Assembly: GCA_016199245.1 (NCBI GenBank)
Contig: JACQHC010000061.1
Location: forward strand, 1-37,561
From: Gemmatimonadota bacterium
Lineage (GTDB): Bacteria > Gemmatimonadota > Gemmatimonadetes > Gemmatimonadales > GWC2-71-9
Direction: 5' to 3'
Length of the DNA stretch: 37,561 nt
In this document: piece after piece, positions 4,671-37,561 of the stretch
How positions within the stretch are numbered: the stretch's first letter is position 1
Layout: the number at the start of each line of letters is the position of its first letter
Notes under the pieces: generated by a model
What the model was told of the DNA's origin: nothing
Seen by the model: the letters and a program-made list of their open reading frames with translations, nothing else
Databases searched by the model: none
Made by a program: the position numbers and the translations under genes

Positions 4671-7592
4671 ATGCCGTCCCGTGTCCGCCGCCACCTGTCG
4701 CTCGTGCCGACCGCGGTTTCGAGCCTCGTCCTCGCGCTCCCGCTGGGCGCCCAAACCCTGCCGTCGCCCGCACAGGTCTTCGGCCACGAGATTGGCGCCG
4801 ACCGGAAGCTGGTGGACTGGGACGGGATCGTTCGCTACATGCAAATGGCCGACCAGGCCTCAGACCGCGTGAACCTGCGAGAGGTCGGGAAGTCGAGCCA
4901 TAACCGCCCGTTCCTGCTCCTGGAGATCTCGAGCCCGCAAACGATCGCCAACATCGACCGCTACAAGGCGCTCCAGCGGCGGCTCTACTTCCAGGATCAC
5001 GTGCCGGGACAGGACGCGAGCGCAGTGCACACCGCAGCGCAACGCGAGGAGCTTTTCACTCAGCACAAGGCCGTGGTTCTGATCACGTGCACCATTCACG
5101 CGACCGAAGTGGGCGCGGCGCAGATGACGCTGGAGCTGGTCTACAACCTGGCCACCGCCAACGACGAGCGGACGCGGAAGATCCTGGACAACGTGATCTT
5201 CCTGCTGGTGCCGAGTCTGAACCCTGACGGACAGGACATGGTGGTGGAGTGGTACAACCGCTACGTCGGGACCGAGTTTGAGGCCGGCAACATTCCGTGG
5301 CTCTATCACCCCTACGTGGGCCATGACAACAACCGCGACCTGTACATGCTCACGCAGGCGGAGTCGCGCAACATCTCGCAGATCCTCTACAAGGATTGGT
5401 TCCCCTCCATCTGGTTGGACGAGCACCAGATGGGCTCCACCGGCCCGCGGATCTTCACCATGCCGGCCACCGATCCCATCAACCTGAACGTCCATCCTCT
5501 TATCTATCGACTGAACGGGATCTACGGCCAGGCGCAGGCCGCCGCGCTCGAGGCTGCCGGGAAGACCGGCATCATCTACGACTACACCTACACCAACTTC
5601 TGGCCCGGCGCGATGGCGTGGACCGGCTGGTGGCACAACCAGGTGGGCATGCTCACCGAGGTCGCGAGCGTGCGCATCGCCACACCGACGTACCAGCGCA
5701 TGGCCCGGATGGGTGAGACGCCGAGTGGGCAAGCGGGTGGATTTGGCGGATTCGACGGCGGGCGTGCGACCGACACACTTCCACCGCCGCGCGACACGCA
5801 ACCGCGCACCAACTACGCGCGACCCTGGCTCGGGGGCGAGTGGCGGCTCCGGGACATCGTGGAATACGAGCTGATCGCGACGATGGCGCTGCTGGAATCG
5901 GCGGCCGACACGCGGCGCACGTTGTTGGAGCAGTTGTACGAGGTGAATCGGACGGCGATCAATCAATTCCGCGGCACGGCCGCGAGGGCGGCAGACGCGG
6001 GAGGAGCGGCAGCGGCGGCAGCCGGGAACGGACAGCAGGCGATGACAGGCGATGGCGGGCGATCACGGGCGACGCCGGCAACGGGCCGAGTGATGGACTT
6101 GTCGGCCGCGGCGAATGGGACGCCCTACGCGGTCATCGTGGACCCCGAGCAGAAGAGCCCGATCGACGCCGCCAAGATGCTCCAGCTGCTCGAGCACAAC
6201 GGCGTGATCGTTGAGCGCGCCACGCAGCCGTTCGACGCGGCGGGCCAGCGACACGCGGCGGGCACGTGGGTCATTCGCCTGGGCCAGGTGTTCGGCGCGT
6301 ATGCCAAGGAGATGCTCGAGACGCAAGTCTATCCGGAGGTGCGCCTGTCCCCAGAATCACCGCCGCGGCCGCCGTACGACGTCACCGCGTGGACGCTGGG
6401 GATGTTGATGGACGTAGACACGCGGTTCGTCCCGGCGCCGTTCGACGCCGCGCTGGAGGTGGTGCGCGGCGTGCCGCTGCCCCGCGGCCGCATCACGGGC
6501 TCGGGTGGGACGTTTCTGATCGACGGGTCACACAATGACGGCTTCACCGCAGCCAACCGGCTGTGGAAGTCCGGTGCGCGCATCCACCGCGCCTCCGCGG
6601 CTTTCACGGCAGCGAACACACGGTTCGGGGCCGGCACCTGGGTCGTCGAAGGTGTCTCGACCCAACGGATGCGAGAGGTTGCCGAACCCCTAGGCCTCCC
6701 AGTGGTCGCAGTGGGCTCCGTCCCAGCTGCCGCCTCTGCCGCTCCTGCCGCTTCTGGCGCCCCTCGCGTTGCCCTGTACCAACCCTGGGGCTCCAACATG
6801 GACGAAGGCTGGACGCGCTGGGTGCTGGAGCATTTCGGCTTCGACTACACCACGCTGCACCCCCAGGACCTGCGCGCCGCGGCCCCGAACGCGACTGGGG
6901 AGTTCGAGATTCCGGCGGCGGAGCGCGCCCAGTGGCCCGGTCATGTGAAGGACCACACGCCGCCCAGCGTGCTGAAGCAGCCGCTGGCTGGCCGGTTCGA
7001 CGTCGTGCTGTTCACCGACCAGGGAGCGGAGAGCATCCTGCGTGGCACCAGCTCGTCAGCCACACCGCCCGTCTACCGCGGCGGGATCGGTGAGGAAGGC
7101 ATCACCGCGCTCAAGGCGTTCGTCGCGAGTGGCGGTACGGTCGTGGCCCTGGGGAGCGCGGGCGACTTGTTCATCGAGCACTGGCCGATCCCAGTGAAGA
7201 ACGTCGCACGCACGCTGAGCGACACTGAGCTGCTGATCCCCGGCTCCATTCCACGCCTTCAGGCCGACCCCAGTCATTCCCTCACCTGGGGGATGCCGGA
7301 GTCCACGTACGGGTTCTTCATTCGCAGTCCGTTCTATGCGCTGACAGATGGATTCAACAGCCAACGGGTCAGCGTGCCGCTGCGTTACCCAAACACCGAC
7401 GTCCGGGCGTCGGGGTGGATTCGCGGCGAAGAGCACCTCCAGGGCCGAGCGGCTGCCGTGCAGGTGGACTTCGACGGTGGTGGCAGGATCATCTTGATCG
7501 GGATCCGGCCACAGCACCGCGCGCAGACCCATGCGACGTTCAAGGTCCTGTTCAATGCGCTGGTCAATGCGGGGTCCAAGAGGCCGGCGTAA
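4671..7592 (+). CDS. Secreted M14-family zinc metallopeptidase
   Basis: 973 residues from MPSRVRRHLS. I prefer this start to the GTG-like start at 4548 because it gives a classic signal peptide (charged start, LVPTAVSSLVLALPLGAQ) and has aagggg upstream. The carboxypeptidase domain follows: HATE (His143, Glu146) supplies two zinc ligands and DEHQMGS (His252) the third. NPDG and HDNNRD match substrate-binding elements of the family, and LTEVAS probably holds the catalytic Glu. After residue ~440 comes a low-complexity stretch partly built from 10-bp DNA repeats, then alpha/beta regions; the last (VALYQPWGSNMDEGW to LKAFVASGGTVVALG) resembles a class-I glutamine-amidotransferase-like fold without obvious catalysis. 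It probably cleaves peptides in the periplasm or outside the cell. Ala/Ser/Gly-rich linkers near residues 440-470 and 683-698 are unusual. Confidence 0.88.
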   Translation: MPSRVRRHLSLVPTAVSSLVLALPLGAQTLPSPAQVFGHEIGADRKLVDWDGIVRYMQMADQASDRVNLREVGKSSHNRPFLLLEISSPQTIANIDRYKALQRRLYFQDHVPGQDASAVHTAAQREELFTQHKAVVLITCTIHATEVGAAQMTLELVYNLATANDERTRKILDNVIFLLVPSLNPDGQDMVVEWYNRYVGTEFEAGNIPWLYHPYVGHDNNRDLYMLTQAESRNISQILYKDWFPSIWLDEHQMGSTGPRIFTMPATDPINLNVHPLIYRLNGIYGQAQAAALEAAGKTGIIYDYTYTNFWPGAMAWTGWWHNQVGMLTEVASVRIATPTYQRMARMGETPSGQAGGFGGFDGGRATDTLPPPRDTQPRTNYARPWLGGEWRLRDIVEYELIATMALLESAADTRRTLLEQLYEVNRTAINQFRGTAARAADAGGAAAAAAGNGQQAMTGDGGRSRATPATGRVMDLSAAANGTPYAVIVDPEQKSPIDAAKMLQLLEHNGVIVERATQPFDAAGQRHAAGTWVIRLGQVFGAYAKEMLETQVYPEVRLSPESPPRPPYDVTAWTLGMLMDVDTRFVPAPFDAALEVVRGVPLPRGRITGSGGTFLIDGSHNDGFTAANRLWKSGARIHRASAAFTAANTRFGAGTWVVEGVSTQRMREVAEPLGLPVVAVGSVPAAASAAPAASGAPRVALYQPWGSNMDEGWTRWVLEHFGFDYTTLHPQDLRAAAPNATGEFEIPAAERAQWPGHVKDHTPPSVLKQPLAGRFDVVLFTDQGAESILRGTSSSATPPVYRGGIGEEGITALKAFVASGGTVVALGSAGDLFIEHWPIPVKNVARTLSDTELLIPGSIPRLQADPSHSLTWGMPESTYGFFIRSPFYALTDGFNSQRVSVPLRYPNTDVRASGWIRGEEHLQGRAAAVQVDFDGGGRIILIGIRPQHRAQTHATFKVLFNALVNAGSKRPA
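6031..6079 (+). repeat. Degenerate 10-bp tandem repeat inside the M14 gene
   Basis: Consecutive 10-bp units are gacagcaggc, gatgacaggc, gatggcgggc and gatcacgggc, followed by a partial unit. They encode the linker GQQAMTGDGGRSRATPAT. The unit gatcacgggc is found again, in the same kind of 10-bp array, at 31901-31910. Confidence 0.7.
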
Positions 7593-7608
7593 CCCGCCGG
7601 GAAGCGAG

Positions 7609-7685
7609 GTTCGATACTCGATGCTCGTTGTTCGATGTTCGAAGCGCCGTCTCGAGTATCGGACATCGAACATCTAACATCGAAG
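7609..7685. repeat. Intergenic palindromic repeat of the ttcgat/atcgaa type
   Basis: This stretch lies between the M14 gene and the next gene and is made of short ttcgatgttcga-like words and their complements. Two pairs are visible: cgatactcga (7612-7621) with tcgagtatcg (7652-7661), and gatgttcga (7634-7642) with tcgaacatc (7666-7674). The pairs interleave, so either hairpin could form but not both as simple nested stems. A related array is at 9188-9273. It could act as a transcript end or be a dispersed repeat; there is no U-run. Confidence 0.65.
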
Positions 7686-7725
7686 GTCGTTCACCGCCAT
7701 CGGACGATCGGGAGGGAGGCTAGCA

Positions 7726-8028
7726 GTGGGCATCGAACTCGAGCTGGGAGTCCTGCTGGCGATCTCGATCGTCGGGTGTCCCGTGTTTGCCGTTTTCGAG
7801 GTCGAGACCGCCCGGTGGAGAAAAGTCCTGAAGTGGCTGATCATCAGTGGCGCAACTGTCGGCCTGTATTACGCCATCGGCCACACCGCGCTTGCGGTGC
7901 CGCTCGGGCTTGGCGTTGTGGGATTGTCGTTTCACTTCTGGTGGTGCAACAAGCACGGAATCCATCCGCTCTACGCGACGCCGCGGCGGCGGTATTACGA
8001 GTTGCGCGGTTGGAGTTGGCCCGAGTAG
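7726..8028 (+). CDS. Small hydrophobic membrane protein, unknown function
   Basis: 100 residues starting at GTG 7726, eight bases or less after a strong purine site (ggagggagg). About three hydrophobic segments are visible: LELGVLLAISIVGCPVFAVF, a segment around WLIISGATVGLYYAIG, and ALAVPLGLGVVGLSFHFWW. The cytoplasmic-looking tail HGIHPLYATPRRRYYELRGW is rich in Arg, Tyr and His and looks conserved in character. I do not recognise a family. It stands alone between two intergenic repeats, with the convergent yceI gene behind it. Confidence 0.7.
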   Translation: MGIELELGVLLAISIVGCPVFAVFEVETARWRKVLKWLIISGATVGLYYAIGHTALAVPLGLGVVGLSFHFWWCNKHGIHPLYATPRRRYYELRGWSWPE

Positions 8029-8107
8029 ATACCAGACGACAGTAGAAGCGGCACACGGCCCACCGGCGCTTCCGCCGACTGGGCCGAGTGCTCCTGAGGC
8101 GCCTCCG

Positions 8108-8668
8108 TTAAGCCGCCGCCGCTTCCGCTGACGCCGCCTCCGCCGCCGCTGCCTCTGCGACCACCTCGATATCGAGATTGAACCGGACCTCCTCGCCCAC
8201 GACCAATCCGCCCGTCTCGAGCAGCTGGTTCCACGTGAGCCCCCACTCCTTCCGATTCAGCTTCCCCGTTGCCCGTCCCGCGATCCGCCGGTTCCCCCAC
8301 GGATCGGTGACCGGCTGCTCCACCTCGGCCGTGAATGAGACCGGCCGCGTCACACCGCGCATGGTCAGATCCCCTTCGATCCGATACGTGCCGTCCGGGT
8401 TGGGCGTCACGGCGGTGCTGCGGTACGTGATCTCGGGATACTGCTGGACGTCGAAGAAATCTGCCGACTTCAGATGCGCGTCGCGGTCGGGCACGTTGGT
8501 GTTGATGCTGGCCGCGTCAATGGCGACTTCCAGGGCCCGAAGCGCGCCGTCGGGAGCCGTCCTCACGCTGCCCTGGAATGCCTGAAACCGTCCTTTGGTG
8601 GTCGAAATGCCCAGGTGCTTGACGCCGAACTCGATGGCGCTGTGGGCTGCGTCGATGTTCCACTGCAT
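8108..8668 (-). CDS. YceI-family lipocalin-like protein
   Basis: 186 residues, starting at the ATG of 8668-8666 behind an aaaaggag ribosome site. The whole length fits the YceI fold: N-terminal WNIDAAHSAIEFGVKHLGIS, then FQGSV, then the central DFFDVQQYPEITYRST and LTMRGVTRPVSF, and GRATGKLNRKEWGL near the end. YceI proteins are beta-barrels that bind isoprenoid-type or amphiphilic lipids; this one has no signal peptide, so it is probably cytoplasmic. The last ~16 residues are an Ala/Glu/Ser tail (AEAAAAEAASAEAAAA) encoded by 9-bp GC repeats and are not part of the fold. It is divergent from the HxlR regulator gene, which probably controls it. Confidence 0.9.
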   Translation of the reverse strand: MQWNIDAAHSAIEFGVKHLGISTTKGRFQAFQGSVRTAPDGALRALEVAIDAASINTNVPDRDAHLKSADFFDVQQYPEITYRSTAVTPNPDGTYRIEGDLTMRGVTRPVSFTAEVEQPVTDPWGNRRIAGRATGKLNRKEWGLTWNQLLETGGLVVGEEVRFNLDIEVVAEAAAAEAASAEAAAA

Positions 8669-24016: not shown

Positions 24017-25365
24017 CGGGGCTCAAGCGGTCGCTCACGGCCGTCGAGTATTTCACGTTCGGCTTCGGCACAATGATCGGAGTCGGCTGGCTGGTGCTGA
24101 TGCCCGACTGGCTGGGGCGCGGCGGGCCGGGCGGTGCCATGCTGGCGTTCGCCGTGGGGGGCGTCTTGCTCCTGCCCATCGCGCTCACCTACGGGCGGCT
24201 GGTGCGCCAGATCCCCGACGCCGGCGCGGAGATCGCCTACGCCGAGCGCGTGTTCCCGCCATTCGTGGCGTTCGCGGCCGGATGGATCATGGTGCTGGCC
24301 TACGCGATCGTATGCCCATGGGAAGCGGTGGTGATCGGCAACCTGCTCGCCCGTATCGTCCCCGTGATGGACACGATGCCGCTGTACGAGGTGGCGGGGC
24401 GCACGATCTACGCCCCGCGGCTCGCGGCCGGGCTCGTGCTCGCCGCCCTGATCACCGCAATCAACTACCGCGGGATCCGTCAGAGCGGCCTGTTTCAGGA
24501 CGTCACCACCTTCGGCCTGCTCGCGGCGTTCGCGGTCTTCGCCACGCTTGGCCTGCTGCGCGGGGAGTCGGAGCGCGTGACGCCGCTATTCGCCCGACCC
24601 GGGGCGGCCGGCGCGCTGGTTTCCACGGTGCTGGTGATGCAGATCGTGCCGTATTTCATGACGGGTTTCGAATCCGTGGTGAAGGGCTCGGAGGAAGCCC
24701 GATCGGGCTTCGAGCCGCGGCATTTCGGGCGCGCAATCAATCTGTCGGTGGCGTCCGGGGCGCTGTTCTACGTCGTGATTGTGGCCGCCGTGGCGTTTGT
24801 GTACCCGTGGCGCGAGATCGTCGAGGGGAACATCGGGACCGAAGCGGCGTTCCAGCGCGCATTCGGGTCGCGCACGATCACCAACGTGATCCTCATCGGG
24901 GCGTTTCTCTCGTTGTTCAAGGTATTCAACGGCAATTTCGTGGCGGCGACGCGGCTCGCGTTCGCGATCGGCAGGCGCGGGCTGGTTCACGCGTCACTCG
25001 GAAGCGTACACCCGGTCTACGGCACGCCGGGCGTCGCCATTCTCCTCATGGGCGCGTTCACGGCCGCGGCGTCTTTACTGGGGGACGCGCTGCTCATCCC
25101 GGTGACCGAGGTGGGCTCGCTCGCCTCCGGCGTGGGCTGGCTCTCGGCGTGCCTCGCGTATCTCCTGCTGCGGCCAGCGGGCGGATCACGCGCAGGCGTG
25201 GTGACCGCATCTGTCGGCGCGCTGGCCGCGCTCGGCATCATCGTGATGAAGGTCGTGCCCGGCGTCCCGGGAAGTTTCCGGCCCGCCGAATGGGTGGCGC
25301 TCGCCGCCTGGTGCGCGCTGGGCCTGGGGTTCTGGCTGGCGAGACCGCGAGCGGCATCACGCTGA
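24013..25365 (+). CDS. APC-superfamily amino-acid permease
   Basis: 450 residues from the GTG overlapping the previous stop (GTGA). The first helix has the APC signature [17 protein letters not shown] in form ([17 protein letters not shown] here), and about 12 hydrophobic segments follow, with the conserved [17 protein letters not shown] after helix 2 and [13 protein letters not shown] in the middle. It is an inner-membrane transporter that presumably imports an amino acid or amine by proton symport or exchange. Coupling to the small ABM-type protein is tight, but the substrate is unknown. Confidence 0.87.
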
Positions 25366-27753: not shown

Positions 27754-29094
27754 CTAGAAGTTGTACTCCAGCCCCAGCGTCCACGCGACGCCGGGCCGCA
27801 GGCCGCCCCGGTTCAGCGGCCACAGCGAGTTGGTGACGATCGTGAGCCCGGGACGCGTCACGAACTTGAAGCCCAGCGACCCGTTCACGATGTCGTCGCG
27901 GCCGTCGGGGATGTTGGTGGGCTCGATGGTGCGGCGGAACGGCACGTCGATGTGCACGACTCCCGGAATCACCAGCCCGCTCTCACCCGCTTCCAGCTCC
28001 GAGATCAAGTCCACCGCCAGCGTGGCCCAGTCGGACAGCGCGTGATCGAAGCCGGCGGTGGCGAGGACGGCGTCATTCAGCTCGCCGCCGCTGCGGTACA
28101 CGTAGCCCACGTTGGCGTGCGGCGAGAAGCTGCCGAACCGCGCGGACACCATGCCGAGTCCGCGGACGGCCGTGTGCCCCGCGCCGAGCAGGTCGGTCGC
28201 GTCGCCGGTGGCGAAGCGGGCATCCGCCAGGATGCCGAACGCCGCCCGCTCGGATTGCGAGAGCCGCACTTTCAGCCGCGCGGCGACGTCGCCCACACCC
28301 GTGGCGGAGCCCTCCACGAACCGTGACGCCGCAAGCTCGGGGTTCGTGGGAACCCCCGCGAAGAAGTGCGTCGCGCTGGTGCCACCGAACGGCACGACCT
28401 GTGCCACGCTGGTGCCGCGCAACGACGCCGAGACCACGGGCACCGCCACGCCGACGTCCATCCAATCCAGCAGGCCGTAGCTCAACACGAACACCGTGGC
28501 CGTGACGTCGAGTTTGATTGAGAGATCGAGCGCGATGAAGTCGTTCTCGAGCGTCGGTCGTCCCATGACGGCGCAATCGCCCCCGAACAGCGTATCGCAG
28601 CCGGGGAAATTCGAGTTCGCGTGCGTGAAGTTGAGCTCGATGTTCGCGAGGTCCACGCCGCGCACGGACTGGAAATGCATGCGATTCACGTTGACGCCGG
28701 CGAGCACGCGGCCCCGCCCGAGCGTCTGCGCCCGCTCGGCGAAGATGGGGCCGGCGGACGTGGACGTGGCGACCGGCACCCCGCCCTCAAACCGGAAGGT
28801 CTGCCCGCTGCTCGTCGCGCTGATGGGCAGGTTCGCGACGGAGCTGCCGATAGCGCTGGTCAGGAATCCGATCAGCGTCGCATTGCCTTCCACCGCGGCC
28901 GGCACGAAGTGGCTGCCGTGCGCCTGAACGGACGCCGGATTGCTCGCCCCGGCGGTGCCGGCGAGGAACAGCGGCTGGCCACCCGAGCCGAAAATGAACA
29001 GGTCACTGATCAGGTCCCGGAGTCCCTGCGCCTGGAGCGGCGCAGCGATACCGGAGACGCTCACGACGACGAACACGCACAGAGAACGCGTCAT
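27754..29094 (-). CDS. Outer-membrane beta-barrel protein, unknown ligand
   Basis: 446 residues with a signal peptide (SLCVFVVVSVSGIAAPLQAQ) and many alternating amphipathic strands. It ends in LGLEYNF; a terminal Phe is the usual signal for outer-membrane barrel assembly. Two cysteines (FPGCDTLFGGDCAV) may make a loop disulphide. Strands such as VGVAVPVVSASL, ARFGSFSPHANVGYVYRSG and GLTIVTNSLWPLN resemble FadL/phenol-transporter-like 'transporter' barrels, but no family can be fixed. It starts 10 bases after the zinc-ribbon kinase stop on the same strand, so it is the last gene of the globin-kinase operon. Confidence 0.8.
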   Translation of the reverse strand: MTRSLCVFVVVSVSGIAAPLQAQGLRDLISDLFIFGSGGQPLFLAGTAGASNPASVQAHGSHFVPAAVEGNATLIGFLTSAIGSSVANLPISATSSGQTFRFEGGVPVATSTSAGPIFAERAQTLGRGRVLAGVNVNRMHFQSVRGVDLANIELNFTHANSNFPGCDTLFGGDCAVMGRPTLENDFIALDLSIKLDVTATVFVLSYGLLDWMDVGVAVPVVSASLRGTSVAQVVPFGGTSATHFFAGVPTNPELAASRFVEGSATGVGDVAARLKVRLSQSERAAFGILADARFATGDATDLLGAGHTAVRGLGMVSARFGSFSPHANVGYVYRSGGELNDAVLATAGFDHALSDWATLAVDLISELEAGESGLVIPGVVHIDVPFRRTIEPTNIPDGRDDIVNGSLGFKFVTRPGLTIVTNSLWPLNRGGLRPGVAWTLGLEYNF

Positions 29095-32746: not shown

Positions 32747-33411
32747 CCGGACCGAACGGGCGGCGCGTGATCGCTGTGAGTGTCGGCCTGCCGCGCGAAG
32801 TGGAGTGGCGAGGCCAAGTGGTTGTCACCTCCATCTTCAAGACCCCGGTCGAGACCCGGGTGTGGGCGCGACAGCTCAACCTGGATGGCGACCGGCAATC
32901 GGATCTCGCGGTACACGGCGGCGTTCACAAGGCCGTGTACGCGTATCCATCGGAGCACTACGCCTGGTGGCGGGACTGGCTGCGGGCCACGGACCTGCCG
33001 TGGGGCGCGCTCGGGGAGAATCTCACGACCGAGGGGCTGCTCGAGGCCGCCGTGCGGATCGGCGACCGCCTGCGGATCGGCAGCGCCGAGTTCACGATCA
33101 CGCAGCCCCGCCTGCCGTGCTTCAAGCTCGGTATCCGGCACGGCCGGCCCGGCATCGTCAAGCACTTCGAGAAGAGCTGTCGATGCGGCTTCTACCTCTC
33201 CGTCGTGCGGGAGGGGGATGTGGGCGCGGGCGACGGAATCGAGATCCTCGACCGTGATCCCGGAGCCATGACCGTGGCGGAGACCGCGAGGCTTCGCACC
33301 AGCAAGCGACCGGAGCGCGAGTTGCTCCAGCGAGCGGCGGCGCAGGCCGGGCTGTCACCGAGCTGGCGCGAGCATTTCACCAAGAAACTCCTGGGAGATA
33401 CGACCGAGTGA
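32743..33411 (+). CDS. MOSC-domain protein (YiiM-like)
   Basis: 222 residues from GTG 32743, overlapping the SugE fragment stop (GTGA); a GTG about eight codons later, before IAVSVGLPREV, is another possible start. The MOSC signature is clear: VGLPREVEWRGQVVVTSIFKTPV, then LNLDGDRQSDLAVHGGVHKAVYAYPSEHY in family form, then ENLTTEGLLE and RLPCFKLGIRHG with the conserved Cys, and SCRCGFYLSVVREG. MOSC proteins handle sulphur on the molybdenum cofactor; YiiM reduces N-hydroxylated compounds. Its C-terminal helical part (TVAETARLRTSK onwards) is also of YiiM type. It is coupled to the next gene by a GTGA overlap. Confidence 0.88.
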   Translation: MTGPNGRRVIAVSVGLPREVEWRGQVVVTSIFKTPVETRVWARQLNLDGDRQSDLAVHGGVHKAVYAYPSEHYAWWRDWLRATDLPWGALGENLTTEGLLEAAVRIGDRLRIGSAEFTITQPRLPCFKLGIRHGRPGIVKHFEKSCRCGFYLSVVREGDVGAGDGIEILDRDPGAMTVAETARLRTSKRPERELLQRAAAQAGLSPSWREHFTKKLLGDTTE

Positions 33412-34631
33412 CCGGCCGCAAGCTCGTCCAACACCTGGCCGGCTGGCGCTGTCTCGCGGCCGTCCTGCTGCTCACCCACCCGGCGTTCGCGCAGGGCCCA
33501 GTCTCCGGCGTGGTGTTCGCGGACCGCGATGGGAATGGCCGGCGCGATGCCGGCGAACCGGGGATCGAACGCGCGTGGGTCTCGAACCAGGTGGACGTCT
33601 CGGCATCGGACGCCTCGGGCGCGTTCACGCTGCCGGGCGGCGGGAACGGCGTGGTGTTCGTGAGCGTGCCGGACGGCTACCGGGTGGTCGGGTCGTTCTG
33701 GCGCGCGGTCACACCGGAGACGGCCGCCGCGCCGATCACCTTCGGGCTCCAGCCGGCGGCCCGCGTGGAGGAGTTCACGTTCATCCACGCGTCGGACACG
33801 CACATCCAGGCGTCGGCGGTACCGCGGTTCGACCGGCTGCGCGCGGTCGTGGATTCCATGAAGCCCGCCTTCGTCCTGATCTCCGGGGATCTCGTGCGCG
33901 ACGCGTTGCGCGTGGGCGAGGCCGAAGCGCGCGGATACTATGAGCTATATGTGCGCGAGAGCGCGCGGCTCACGGCCCCGGCGTGGAACGTGCCCGGGAA
34001 TCACGAGATCTTCGGTATCGAGCGCCACCTCTCGCTGGTCGCCCCCACGCACCCGCTCTACGGTCGGAAGATGTACCGCAGCTATCTGGGTCCCGACTAC
34101 TACAGCTTCACGTACGGGGGCGTGCATTTCGTGGGCCTGAACACGGTGGACATCGCGGACCTGTTCTACTACGGCCACGTGGACAGCACCCAGCTGGTCT
34201 GGCTCGAGCGCGATCTCGCCGGCGTGCCGCCTGCCACGCCGGTCGTCACGTTCAACCACATCCCCTTCTTCAGCTCGGCACTCGCGCTGGGCGGCTACAC
34301 GGAGGATCCTCCGGCCCCCACACTGATCCGGGTCAACGGGCGCGACCAGTTCCGCCACGTGGTCTCCAACGCCCGGGATGTCCTGGCCGTGCTGCGCGAT
34401 CGACCCTATCCGCTCGCCCTGGGCGGGCACTTCCACATGCGCGAGCGGCTCGAGTACGGGACTGAAGGAGGCCGGCGGACGAGATTCGAGCAGACGGCGG
34501 CGGTGGTCGGGCCGAGCGGGTCGGAGGGGATGCGGATGGCGTCCGGGGTGACGGTGTATCGGGTGAGGCGGGGCGAGGTGTCGGTGGGAGAGTTCATCCC
34601 GCTGGACCCAAGGGACGGATCTCGTCATTAG
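33408..34631 (+). CDS. Secreted calcineurin-like metallophosphoesterase with SdrD-B-like N-terminal domain
   Basis: 407 residues from the GTG overlapping the MOSC stop. A signal peptide (LAAVLLLTHPAFAQG) is followed by a small beta domain of the SdrD-B/calcineurin-N type (GVVFADRDGNGRRDAGEPGI, with a DxDxNG calcium-like loop). The phosphoesterase domain then has all five metal blocks: ASDTHIQ, ISGDLVRD, VPGNHEIFG, TFNHIPFF and LGGHFHMRE. It acts outside the cytoplasm on phosphate esters, substrate unknown. The gene ends the coupled chain that begins at 31980. Confidence 0.88.
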   Translation: MTGRKLVQHLAGWRCLAAVLLLTHPAFAQGPVSGVVFADRDGNGRRDAGEPGIERAWVSNQVDVSASDASGAFTLPGGGNGVVFVSVPDGYRVVGSFWRAVTPETAAAPITFGLQPAARVEEFTFIHASDTHIQASAVPRFDRLRAVVDSMKPAFVLISGDLVRDALRVGEAEARGYYELYVRESARLTAPAWNVPGNHEIFGIERHLSLVAPTHPLYGRKMYRSYLGPDYYSFTYGGVHFVGLNTVDIADLFYYGHVDSTQLVWLERDLAGVPPATPVVTFNHIPFFSSALALGGYTEDPPAPTLIRVNGRDQFRHVVSNARDVLAVLRDRPYPLALGGHFHMRERLEYGTEGGRRTRFEQTAAVVGPSGSEGMRMASGVTVYRVRRGEVSVGEFIPLDPRDGSRH

Positions 34632-34845
34632 GTCATGGAAATACCTGCGACCGATCTGTTGAGCAAAGGCAGCGAGCTTAGCGGCGTTCGCGGGGACCTG
34701 TGTTGCGCCGAGAAGGCTCCAAAGTGTCGGCGGGACGGAAGTTGACGAGAGAGGGTCCGGCAACCGGGTCTTGTTTAGACTGCGCGCCTTGCAGGTTTCG
34801 TGCAGGCGTCAGAGTTTGTCAGTGCGGTCGAATTCATCGTTACTC
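34632..34845. other. Gap with possible gene remnant on the minus strand
   Basis: There is no gene on the plus strand here. On the minus strand, 34763 down to about 34610 reads like protein (VPPTLWSLLGATQVPANAAK), but the frame then becomes the antisense of the phosphoesterase, so at most a remnant is present. This is the boundary between the chromosomal-looking operon and the restriction-modification region. GC content falls slightly here. Confidence 0.3.
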
Positions 34846-35163
34846 ATGAGGGCCCTCATCTGCGACGCCATTGCAAGGCGACTCCGCCTATCCTTCACAT
34901 ACCTTGGTCAGCGCAGAGTCGTCGAACCCCACCTCTGTGGCCGGACGGAAACCGGTGACGACTTGATGCTCGCGTACGTTGTCGCCGGGCACAGCTCGTC
35001 CGGCCCTCTCCCAGGCTGGCGCAACTATCGCCTTTCTGAGATGCACGAAGTTCAGTTGTCGAGCGATGGGTTCGAAAGCCCGCGCCCGGGGTTCAACCCC
35101 CAAGATCCCCGTTTCGCGGTCGTCTACTGCCAGATTGTGGTCGCCCAGGCGGCCCCCGAATAA
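34846..35163 (+). CDS. WYL-like domain protein, putative
   Basis: 105 residues from ATG 34846 (MRALICDAIARRLRLSFTY); the 25 codons before it in the track look non-coding. The pattern LSFTYLGQRRVVEPHLCGRT, then DLMLAYVVAGHS, WRNYRLSEMHEVQL and PRPGFNPQDPRF follows the WYL fold, a ligand- or nucleic-acid-binding module found in regulators of defence and DNA-repair systems. Here it is free-standing, without a helix-turn-helix. It converges on the methyltransferase gene with a 13-bp gap, so it may belong to the same imported segment. Confidence 0.6.
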   Translation: MRALICDAIARRLRLSFTYLGQRRVVEPHLCGRTETGDDLMLAYVVAGHSSSGPLPGWRNYRLSEMHEVQLSSDGFESPRPGFNPQDPRFAVVYCQIVVAQAAPE

Positions 35164-35176
35164 CGCCACGGTGCCC

Positions 35177-36139
35177 TCACTCGAACCGGAATCGGCTCGC
35201 CTCGAGGTATTCAGGAGAGATCTCGATCGCGATCCACCGTCGGCCCAGCGTTTCGGCAACCGCACCGGTCGTATTGGAACCGGCGAACGGATCCACAACC
35301 AGGCTCCCCTCGTTCGTGAGCAAACGAATGAAGAAATCGGGTAGCGCAGAGGGGAATCTCGCTGGGTGGATCTTGATCCCTGCTGCCTTGCACCGCTTCG
35401 TGTAAGGGTCGTTCGCCGCGTTGTTGCCAAACCTCAGCAGATCATCCGTTTCCGATGGTTCGATCATGTTTCCGGGGATCGCCCCGCCGGGGTCGAGTTG
35501 GTCGAACTTGTCAGTGATGTTGTGCCCCGACGGACGCCGCGTGGCGCGAACGCCTCGCTGATTCAGTCGGATCATGTCCGCGCTGTACGGCTTCAGGACA
35601 TTTCGGTTGTTTGCTCGCGGGTGGGGCGTCTTGGCTAGCCACCACACATACTCCACCGCATCCTTGATGCGAACGCGCCTCACCGTTACCCACTCGGCTG
35701 GCATCGGCATCTTCGCTGGATTGTACCAAAAACACTCTTGTGCCAGGTGGAAGCCCACTTCGTCGACCAGAGCCAGTATCAGACGAAAGTGGTAGAGTGA
35801 CCGTGTTGGCTCCCCCTTGTTGTAGCTGCCACCGATGTTCAGAACAAAGCTCCCATCGTGCGCGAGCACGCGATGTATCTGTCGAGCAAACGGCAGGAAC
35901 CAGCCTACGTAGTCGTCCTTTGAGACGTTGCCGTACTCCTTCTTGAAGTGAAGTGCGTACGGCGGAGACGTGAACACTAGGTCCACGCTATTGTCCGGCA
36001 GACCGGTAAGCAGTTCCACCGAATCCCCGAGGTAAGCAGCCCCGCGATCGGTGGTGTACAAGGGCCTCCGACTTGGAAGCAGAGATTCCGGCCTCTCCTC
36101 ACTGCCGAAGCTGATGGACACCTGCTTCCCAACTCGCAT
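35177..36139 (-). CDS. Type II N4-cytosine DNA methyltransferase (M.PvuII-like)
   Basis: 320 residues. TSPPY (57-61) comes first and [10 protein letters not shown] (283-292) last, which is the beta-class order with the SPPY catalytic motif of m4C enzymes. The stretches [44 protein letters not shown] and TRRPSGHNI closely recall M.PvuII, which modifies CAGCTG (comparison from memory, no alignment run). It transfers methyl from AdoMet to protect host DNA. It is transcribed away from the small HTH gene and the putative nuclease, as in PvuII systems. A strong TTGACA-17-TAGAGT promoter lies upstream, inside the start of the HTH gene. Confidence 0.88.
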
Positions 36140-36208
36140 CCTTGGCCAACTCCCCCAGCTTGACGTTGCCCCCCGACTCCCAAATCTAGCCCTGGCCGCT
36201 CAGGATCA

Positions 36209-36214
36209 TATAAT
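36209..36214 (+). promoter_or_regulatory. Candidate -10 (TATAAT) for the HTH-nuclease operon
   Basis: A perfect TATAAT on the plus strand, about 33 bases before the TTG start at 36247, in an AT-rich gap between divergent genes. There is no good -35, which would fit a promoter needing an activator. Confidence 0.4.
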
Positions 36215-36230
36215 CAAAACAACGCACGCC

Positions 36231-36259
36231 ACTCTAACATAATTGGTTGTCATTGTCAA
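36231..36259 (-). promoter_or_regulatory. Promoter of the methyltransferase gene
   Basis: On the minus strand, TTGACA (36259-36254), 17 bases, then TAGAGT (36236-36231). The -35 lies within the first codons of the divergent HTH gene, so a protein bound there would affect both directions. The leader to the methyltransferase ATG is about 85 bases. Confidence 0.55.
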
Positions 36260-36471
36260 CTCATTATACCCTCAACCCGGATGACTGGATCTCACAGGCC
36301 GAGGCCGCCCGGCTTCGTCAGACTAGTCGCCAGGCAATCGCCCGCCTCATCAGCCGGGGCCGGCTCCGGACACTCGTCCTGGCTGGCCGGACTCTGGTGC
36401 ATCGCCCGGACGTGATGAGCTTCTCGAAGCGTCCGGCGGGCAGGCCTCATGGGAAACGGAAGGTTCCATGA
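36247..36471 (+). CDS. Small Xis/MerR-type HTH protein, putative R-M regulator
   Basis: 74 residues from a TTG at 36247 (no ATG or GTG is available in frame). Residues ~15-55 form a winged HTH of the excisionase/MerR type: ISQAEAARLRQTSRQAIARL, then RGRLRTLVLAGRTLVHRPDV, followed by a basic tail (RPAGRPHGKRK). Its stop overlaps the nuclease start (ATGA), and it diverges from the methyltransferase gene. This is the position of a C (controller) gene in PvuII-like systems, but classical C proteins are Xre/Cro-type. Role inferred from position only. Confidence 0.7.
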   Translation: MSLSTHYTLNPDDWISQAEAARLRQTSRQAIARLISRGRLRTLVLAGRTLVHRPDVMSFSKRPAGRPHGKRKVP

Positions 36472-37184
36472 GCCGGCTCGACGATGCGCTTGCTCTGATC
36501 GATGCGCTCAGTGTCCCAGAAAGACAGATGGTCTTGCGGCATCTCCGTCGTGCCTTGCCCCCTCACCCCATGGAAGCACGTCTCAAGGCGAGTGCCGAGA
36601 CGCTTCTCGAAGCGATCAAGCGAGCAAGCCCACTGACCATTCGGGGAATTGAGGGGATTCTCGCTGAAGCGAGCTTCGCGATGGAGGTCCTCCCCACGCT
36701 GCCTGGCTGGGAGGAACTGCCTCCCGAACCCGACGCGTCATACGACTTCCTCCTAACTGATGGGACCCAGGTTTCTCCGGTCCGCCTCCAGGTCAAGATG
36801 CAGCGAAGGAAGAACCATCAACCATGGATGGCCAACCAGGCGATGAAGAAGACGCGCTCTTGGCCTGCCGAGTACTACGTCGTGGAGGTGCAAAGAACCC
36901 GCGGTGGAACAGATACCGCCGGTAAGGGCACCAGACCTTATCGTTTCGAGGAGTTTGACATTCTCGGCGTATCCCTCGGCGCAGCCAAAGGTGAATGGCG
37001 TCATTTCACGTACACCGTTGCGCGCTGGCTCCTCCCGGAGCCCGACGACCCCAACAGTATCCTCAAGTATCAACCTGTGGCGCCATTCGACAACCAAGAC
37101 TGGACGAGCGAGTTCGTTCGAGCCGTGGCTTGGCACCGGAGCGGCATCGCAAGGACCATCGCTGGCAGCAGAGTTGGCGCCTAA
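36468..37184 (+). CDS. Putative type II restriction endonuclease (PD-QxK variant)
   Basis: 238 residues from ATG 36468, overlapping the HTH stop (ATGA). The N-terminal ~50 residues are helical (dimerisation or linker). The middle has a PD-(D/E)xK-like core: Glu in GILAEASF, Asp93 in SYDFLLTDG, then VRLQVKMQRRK with Gln108 and Lys110, so the usual acidic residue before the lysine is a Gln. Later come YYVVEVQRTRGG, RPYRFEEFDILGVSLG and WLLPEPDD. It sits next to an m4C methyltransferase, so it is most likely the cognate nuclease, with the same recognition site as the methyltransferase. The stop TAA is inside the first core box of the attC site. Confidence 0.72.
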   Translation: MSRLDDALALIDALSVPERQMVLRHLRRALPPHPMEARLKASAETLLEAIKRASPLTIRGIEGILAEASFAMEVLPTLPGWEELPPEPDASYDFLLTDGTQVSPVRLQVKMQRRKNHQPWMANQAMKKTRSWPAEYYVVEVQRTRGGTDTAGKGTRPYRFEEFDILGVSLGAAKGEWRHFTYTVARWLLPEPDDPNSILKYQPVAPFDNQDWTSEFVRAVAWHRSGIARTIAGSRVGA

Positions 37185-37323
37185 CCCGCGCTTGCACACC
37201 GACGGGCGCTGTTCGCTGCTAAGGAACCCATTCATTTGCGCGCCCGCGCTCATCACTGCACGTTTGAACATCGCGCTGCCCGTTGCGCACGTCGCCCGCG
37301 GGTGAAGCGCAGCCCGGTTAGGC
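37179..37323 (+). other. Integron attC recombination site
   Basis: It opens with GCCTAAC (R'', 37179-37185) and closes with GTTAGGC (R', 37317-37323), the complementary core boxes of attC sites. Inside, GCGCTTGCAC (37188-37197) pairs with GTGAAGCGC (37302-37310), leaving one unpaired G (37194), and CCGACGGGCG (37199-37208) pairs with CGCCCGCGG (37293-37301), leaving an unpaired A. All unpaired bases are on one strand, as in folded attC. Length is 145 bp, at the upper end of the usual range. The nuclease stop codon lies in R'', which is typical of integron cassettes. No integrase is in the window. Confidence 0.75.
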
Positions 37324-37341
37324 GGCCGCAAGCTCACGTCA

Positions 37342-37561
37342 CGGGATCGGTGATGAACCACGACCGTTTGTAAGCCGCACATGGCCGTTTGCAAGCTGAC
37401 TATTGTCGTGTGCGAGTCCCTTTCCCCCGCTCGCACGCTCACAATCGCCCGTTGCAAGTTTGCAAACGCCGTTTGGCGGCTTACAACGCTCGATGCGCGG
37501 CCCACAAACCACGATTGCCGGCTCCCAAACGAGCATGTAGGGCTTCCAAACCATCGATGTG
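37342..37561 (-). repeat. Degenerate 21-bp tandem repeat, at least nine units
   Basis: Read on the minus strand from the window end, successive 21-bp units begin gtttggaagcc, gtttgggagcc, gtttgtgggcc, cgttgtaagcc, gtttgcaaact and so on, with tails such as gcaaacgg. One minus-strand frame stays open through it (37339-37554) and gives heptads such as VWKPYML, VWEPAIV and VCKLATG. It begins just after the attC site and runs off the window. It may be an intergenic minisatellite or part of a repeat protein gene; I cannot tell which. Confidence 0.75.

Follow-up and report, generated by a model that had tools for sequence, protein, structure and literature searches.

A lone attC site beside a putative restriction-modification gene set in a member of the Gemmatimonadota

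Background

Does an attC site that stands by itself at the end of a contig mark the edge of an integron array, a single stray cassette, or only a hairpin that imitates an attC? This question is raised by a stretch of 37,561 nucleotides from a Gemmatimonadota genome (hereafter the window, meaning the whole stretch that was analysed), near the right end of which lies an imperfect palindrome of 145 bp (positions 37179-37323). Gemmatimonadota are named among the integron-bearing phyla (PMC8618304), and single attC sites lacking an integrase (SALIN) are a recognised class (PMC12690207; see also PMC9024848).

Structure of the site and covariance model analysis

The left side of the palindrome is composed, in this order, of the R'' box GCCTAAC, the spacer CC, GCGCTT, G, CAC, A, CCG, A and CGGGCG, and the right side of CGCCCG, CGG, GTG, AAGCGC, the spacer AGCCCG and the R' box GTTAGGC (Table 1). 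The two boxes are complementary in 7/7 pairs and fit the consensus RYYYAAC and GTTRRRY, respectively, and the arms pair as GCGCTT/AAGCGC, CAC/GTG, CCG/CGG and CGGGCG/CGCCCG. A total of 25 bp is paired in this way, and the 3 bulges (G37194, A37198 and A37202) are all located on the 5' arm. The extrahelical G lies at offset 15, counted from the first base of R'', which is the register of most bona fide attCs in the order Gemmatimonadales, and the 2-nt left spacer is the same as that found in sites of two members of the same family (genomes G049 and G020). A folding energy of -40.1 kcal/mol (z -2.1) was obtained for the bottom strand and of -36.5 kcal/mol for the top strand; the modest z-score of -2.1 is a point against the explanation preferred below.

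In order to assess the palindrome against real sites, a covariance model of 25 pairs was built from 21 attCs of the integrons of relatives, with the window left out. In the alignment of these attCs (n = 21), 90% of the cells pair and 99 cells have changed on both sides, and none of the shuffled or slid versions of the alignment came near the real pairing. One match to the model was obtained in the window, at the palindrome and on the plus strand (39.4 bits, E 2e-7; genome-wide E 1.4e-5 with the same model), and the opposite strand gave no match at E<10. As positive control, the attCs of two class 1 integrons were used, which scored 52.7, 48.5 and 23.7 bits; in the negative control, for which other, array-free loci were taken (143 kb), the best score was 16 bits. 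The attCs in the arrays of relatives score about 24-88 bits, many of them 36-45, and the 39.4 bits of the window's site fall in the lower half of this range, which counts against the explanation preferred below. A search of the window against Rfam returned no matches. An integron integrase that passes the NCBIfam cut-off is encoded in 51 of the 101 genomes searched, and the attCs of Gemmatirosa kalamazoonensis and of other Gemmatimonadales arrays have the same architecture as the site in the window. The host belongs to the same order as Gemmatirosa but to another family.

The site at 37179-37323 is a genuine attC. A preliminary description of this DNA had presented it as a well-formed attC with arms pairing over 7+9+9 bases, and both statements hold, since the boxes, their pairing, the bulges restricted to one strand and the model score agree with the former and the count gives a total identical to the latter. 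Similar sites in related genomes, on whose existence that description had made its case depend, are present, and the model derived from them recovers the site.

Table 1. Features of the window and of one further contig of the same genome
Feature	Position	Strand	Details	Basis
Cassette-like region	about 34632-37323		ends with the attC	GC
GTTGAGC, candidate left border	34658-34664	+	sole GTTRRRY in 34500-36300	sequence; near GC change point
WYL-like ORF	34846-35163	+	105 aa	PF13280 E 7e-4, just under cut-off
Type II DNA methyltransferase, M.PvuII-related (N4-cytosine)	35177-36139	-		PF01555, PADLOC, PDB
Small HTH_17-like ORF, possible controller	36247-36471	+		PF12728 E 0.0017, under curated cut-off; translation
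Candidate type II restriction endonuclease	36468-37184	+	238 aa	conserved motif, paired methyltransferase
attC	37179-37323	+	145 bp	covariance model and fold
R'' box GCCTAAC	37179-37185	+	includes TAA stop of upstream gene	sequence; ORF list
L'' arm	37188-37208	+	extrahelical G37194, bulged A37198 and A37202	sequence, fold
L' arm CGCCCG-CGG-GTG-AAGCGC	37293-37310	+		sequence, fold
R' box GTTAGGC	37317-37323	+		sequence
attC cluster without integrase	C104 (locus 7202-8634)		45.2, 36.5 and 20 bits	model

Neighbourhood of the attC and left border of the cassette

The contig that contains the window (C35) stops 238 bp past the attC. Its last 30 bases (37532-37561) have only one other match in the genome, which is exact and corresponds to the first 30 bases of another contig (C84). 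This is probably an assembly-graph overlap that allows the contig to be extended, and an open frame with a terminal OmdA/YdeI domain crosses the join; the dependence of the link on one 30-base overlap has to be counted against the explanation preferred below. The genes of C84, as called by eye, are ordinary (amidohydrolase, membrane protein and transporter), and this contig contains neither an attC detectable with the covariance model nor an intI. The integron or cassette cluster that had been proposed just to the right of the window is, therefore, not there. To the left, where no matching attC had been noticed, the model likewise finds none elsewhere in the window, and the 37 kb on that side of the site also lack an intI. 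An intI fragment and a separate attC cluster do exist on other contigs of the genome (see below). The intI fragment is on a separate contig (C184), so that a complete integron with intI beside the cassette is not found, and, given the C35-C84 join, neither a further attC nor an intI is located near the site, as in a SALIN.

Irregular short repeats around TTTGCAAGC/CAAACG occupy positions 37340-37561 and positions 1-180 of C84. They lie between the attC and the gene with the OmdA/YdeI domain, and read in frame as degenerate VCKL-like peptide repeats.

The orientation of the attC places the cassette gene to its left. The GC content is 0.60 in the cassette-like region versus 0.68, with the drop at a change point at 34588-34618. 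A left border within 34632-34846 had been put forward, and the region does start approximately there, as indicated by this GC step and by the box GTTGAGC at 34658; the border itself is only a candidate, suggested by one heptamer and the GC step, with no second attC at that place. If located at 34658, the border would imply a cassette of 2,659 bp. An off-target (attG) insertion by IntI would leave the TTRRRY of the cassette next to a target G, and relatives would show an empty site: the candidate GTTGAGC was seen, and an empty site syntenic with the left flank was not found near the homologues of the metallophosphoesterase gene (33408-34631) in six relatives.

Genes of the cassette-like region

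The product of the methyltransferase gene matched PF01555 (E 4e-45), PADLOC MTase_II (E 7e-111) and PDB 1boo (E 8.8e-98), and its similarity to M.PvuII (1boo) extends over nearly the full length. The HTH_17-like ORF overlaps the start of the endonuclease candidate by ATGA, and the TAA stop of the latter sits within the R'' box of the attC, a position that was counted as support for the cassette reading. No match to the 238-aa protein was found in Pfam, NCBIfam, PADLOC or PDB sequences, and its AlphaFold model (pLDDT 43) was too poor for a structure search. A 41% homologue is encoded in a Phycisphaerales MAG, divergently from a methyltransferase 65% identical to that of the window, and one phage record, Dolichospermum phage Dfl-JY14, also contains a 41% homologue; a search of plasmids with the same protein found nothing. 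Three homologues have in common a Y-D...V-R-x-Q-V-K motif, which by our own reading would be of the type found in PD-(D/E)XK nucleases. The methyltransferase match, the conserved divergent partner and this motif make it likely, at the level of sequence, that the methyltransferase, HTH_17-like and candidate endonuclease genes constitute a type II restriction-modification set.

In the PvuII system, the methyltransferase gene is divergent from a small regulator gene and the endonuclease gene. The window resembles this layout, with a methyltransferase strongly related to M.PvuII (PDB 1boo) encoded divergently from a small regulator-like gene and a candidate endonuclease. It differs in that no solved chain is detectably similar in sequence to the candidate endonuclease and in that the small gene, which is HTH_17-like, encodes only a putative C protein. 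Restriction and methylation genes are among the common functions of integron cassettes (PMC8618304), and genes of this kind are likewise found upstream of the attC in the window, although here the methyltransferase gene and the attC are on opposite strands and no match to a curated family was obtained for the candidate endonuclease.

Integron components in the same genome and in relatives

The source genome is a MAG of 2.58 Mb in 197 contigs, 67% complete. Contig C184 opens with an N-terminal fragment of intI, the 3' side of which is cut off by the contig end. Two of the attCs of the cluster on C104 (Table 1) are well supported and the 20-bit one is weaker; the genes of this cluster correspond to a toxin-antitoxin cassette of BrnT/BrnA type plus a small ORF that resembles a membrane protein. 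On contig C5 (about 24880-25005), a non-coding stretch of ~125 bp is homologous to the attC of the window (local alignment score 47 versus a shuffle maximum of 19); its R boxes are ruined and it looks like a decayed attC related to that of the window.

The placement known from class 1 integrons, with attCs upstream of intI, was tried first at the intI loci of relatives and was discarded, since almost no attCs are present on that side. At each of the 13 loci with a match (an attC within 1.5 kb of intI), the site lies on the downstream side of intI and shares its strand. Transcription of intI in the direction of its cassettes, opposite to the class 1 arrangement, is apparently general in Gemmatimonadales; a layout of this type is known in Treponema (PMC3607928). 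Because the first attC of the relatives lies downstream of intI, the lost side of C184 is the expected place of the main array of this genome.

The closed genome G020, from the same family, has attCs at about 1.44, 1.62, 1.66, 1.75 (two), 2.54 (a cluster of five), 2.73, 4.96 and 5.24 Mb, that is, at eight chromosomal places and mostly singly, and no attC was found beside its intI at 3.08 Mb. In three Gemmatimonadaceae genomes (G094, G082 and G067) there are attCs adjoining intI plus several far off. From the positions in these four genomes, a scattered placement of attCs seems to be usual in the order Gemmatimonadales. The complementarity of R'' and R' was also considered as a separator of isolated and arrayed attCs, and it does not discriminate between them.

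Discussion

The best explanation for the site, to which we assign a probability of about 0.8, is that it represents the attC of one integron cassette that lies outside any array (SALIN) and comes from the lineage's own integron system. The cassette would span from about 34632-34660 to 37317, and its load would consist of the M.PvuII-like methyltransferase gene, transcribed away from an operon formed by the HTH_17-like and endonuclease candidate genes, the last codon of which enters the attC. The attC is of the type proper to the host family; its bottom strand would fold into a hairpin to be recognised by IntI via the extrahelical bases, and strand exchange would fall at G37317/T37318, which from general knowledge of attC sites we take to be the crossover point. 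The cassette could leave or re-enter when the integrase acts in trans. It probably came to be here in one of two ways: the IntI of the lineage inserted a circular cassette off-target, or an array decayed until only this cassette was left. Like SALIN and CALIN elements (the IntegronFinder names for single and for clustered attCs without integrase), the locus has one attC preceded by a gene set, and intI is missing from its surroundings; it differs from them in its left border, which is only a candidate, and in that the attCs of the host family appear dispersed over the chromosome. The chromosomal integrons of Gemmatimonadota are arrayed, whereas this site is outside any array and the intI of its genome is a contig-end fragment. 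That the MAG is only 67% complete counts against a single-attC reading.

A chance palindrome, a transposon end or a terminator could imitate an attC, since hairpins are easily formed in GC-rich DNA, and pattern alone also picks out a second RYYYAAC/GTTRRRY pair in the window, at 28480-28636, whose size is suitable. This pair scores nothing in the covariance model, whereas the site at 37179-37323 reaches E 2e-7 with a model made without it, lies on the right strand, has the extrahelical base in register and the stop codon in R'', and shares its genome with an intI fragment and with further attCs; imitation is largely refuted and, in our opinion, very hard to credit. It is less far-fetched, but still improbable, that the attC marks the border of a more extensive array lost in assembly and that the C35-C84 join is wrong. 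Arrays break assemblies, many contigs of relatives end a few hundred bases past intI, draft genomes have been described likewise (PMC9024848), and an R' box fully complementary to R'' is common among arrayed sites. Against such a loss, the end of C35 matches only the first bases of C84, the open frame crosses the join, the genes of C84 are ordinary and without attC, and no attC is present to the left.

Within the single-cassette reading itself, the site may be the remnant of an array from which the other cassettes were lost and one stayed, a sub-case that we consider a real possibility at somewhat below even odds. The full complementarity of R' and R'', which is not expected from a random target, and the retention of GTTAG at most of the isolated attCs of G020 fit an origin in arrays, and the ORF located ~60 bp to the right could be the next cassette minus its attC. 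On the other hand, the window and C84 lack a second attC, and the many dispersed singles of G020 would require as many decayed arrays; these scattered sites fit insertion, and published work describes cassettes inserted at attG sites of a non-classical kind (Loot et al. 2024, as cited in PMC11023631; PMC12901181). A bolder proposal, which we regard as rather doubtful, is that in this family an IntI that is lax in its choice of targets places cassettes one by one at numerous points of the chromosome, which would itself act as the cassette store; restriction-modification and toxin-antitoxin cassettes such as those described here would become fixed away from the array, and the integrons of the group would also have the uncommon layout in which intI points towards the cassettes.

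As a mobile gene cassette, a lone attC with a restriction-modification-like load is nothing out of the ordinary and belongs to a kind already known. With this locus, a single-attC element that probably carries restriction-modification genes is documented in a phylum with few descriptions of integrons, and it helps to establish that stray cassettes lie singly at scattered points in the genomes of the little-studied Gemmatimonadales. The dispersed attCs of G020 offer a test case for off-target spread by the integrase versus remnants of decaying arrays.
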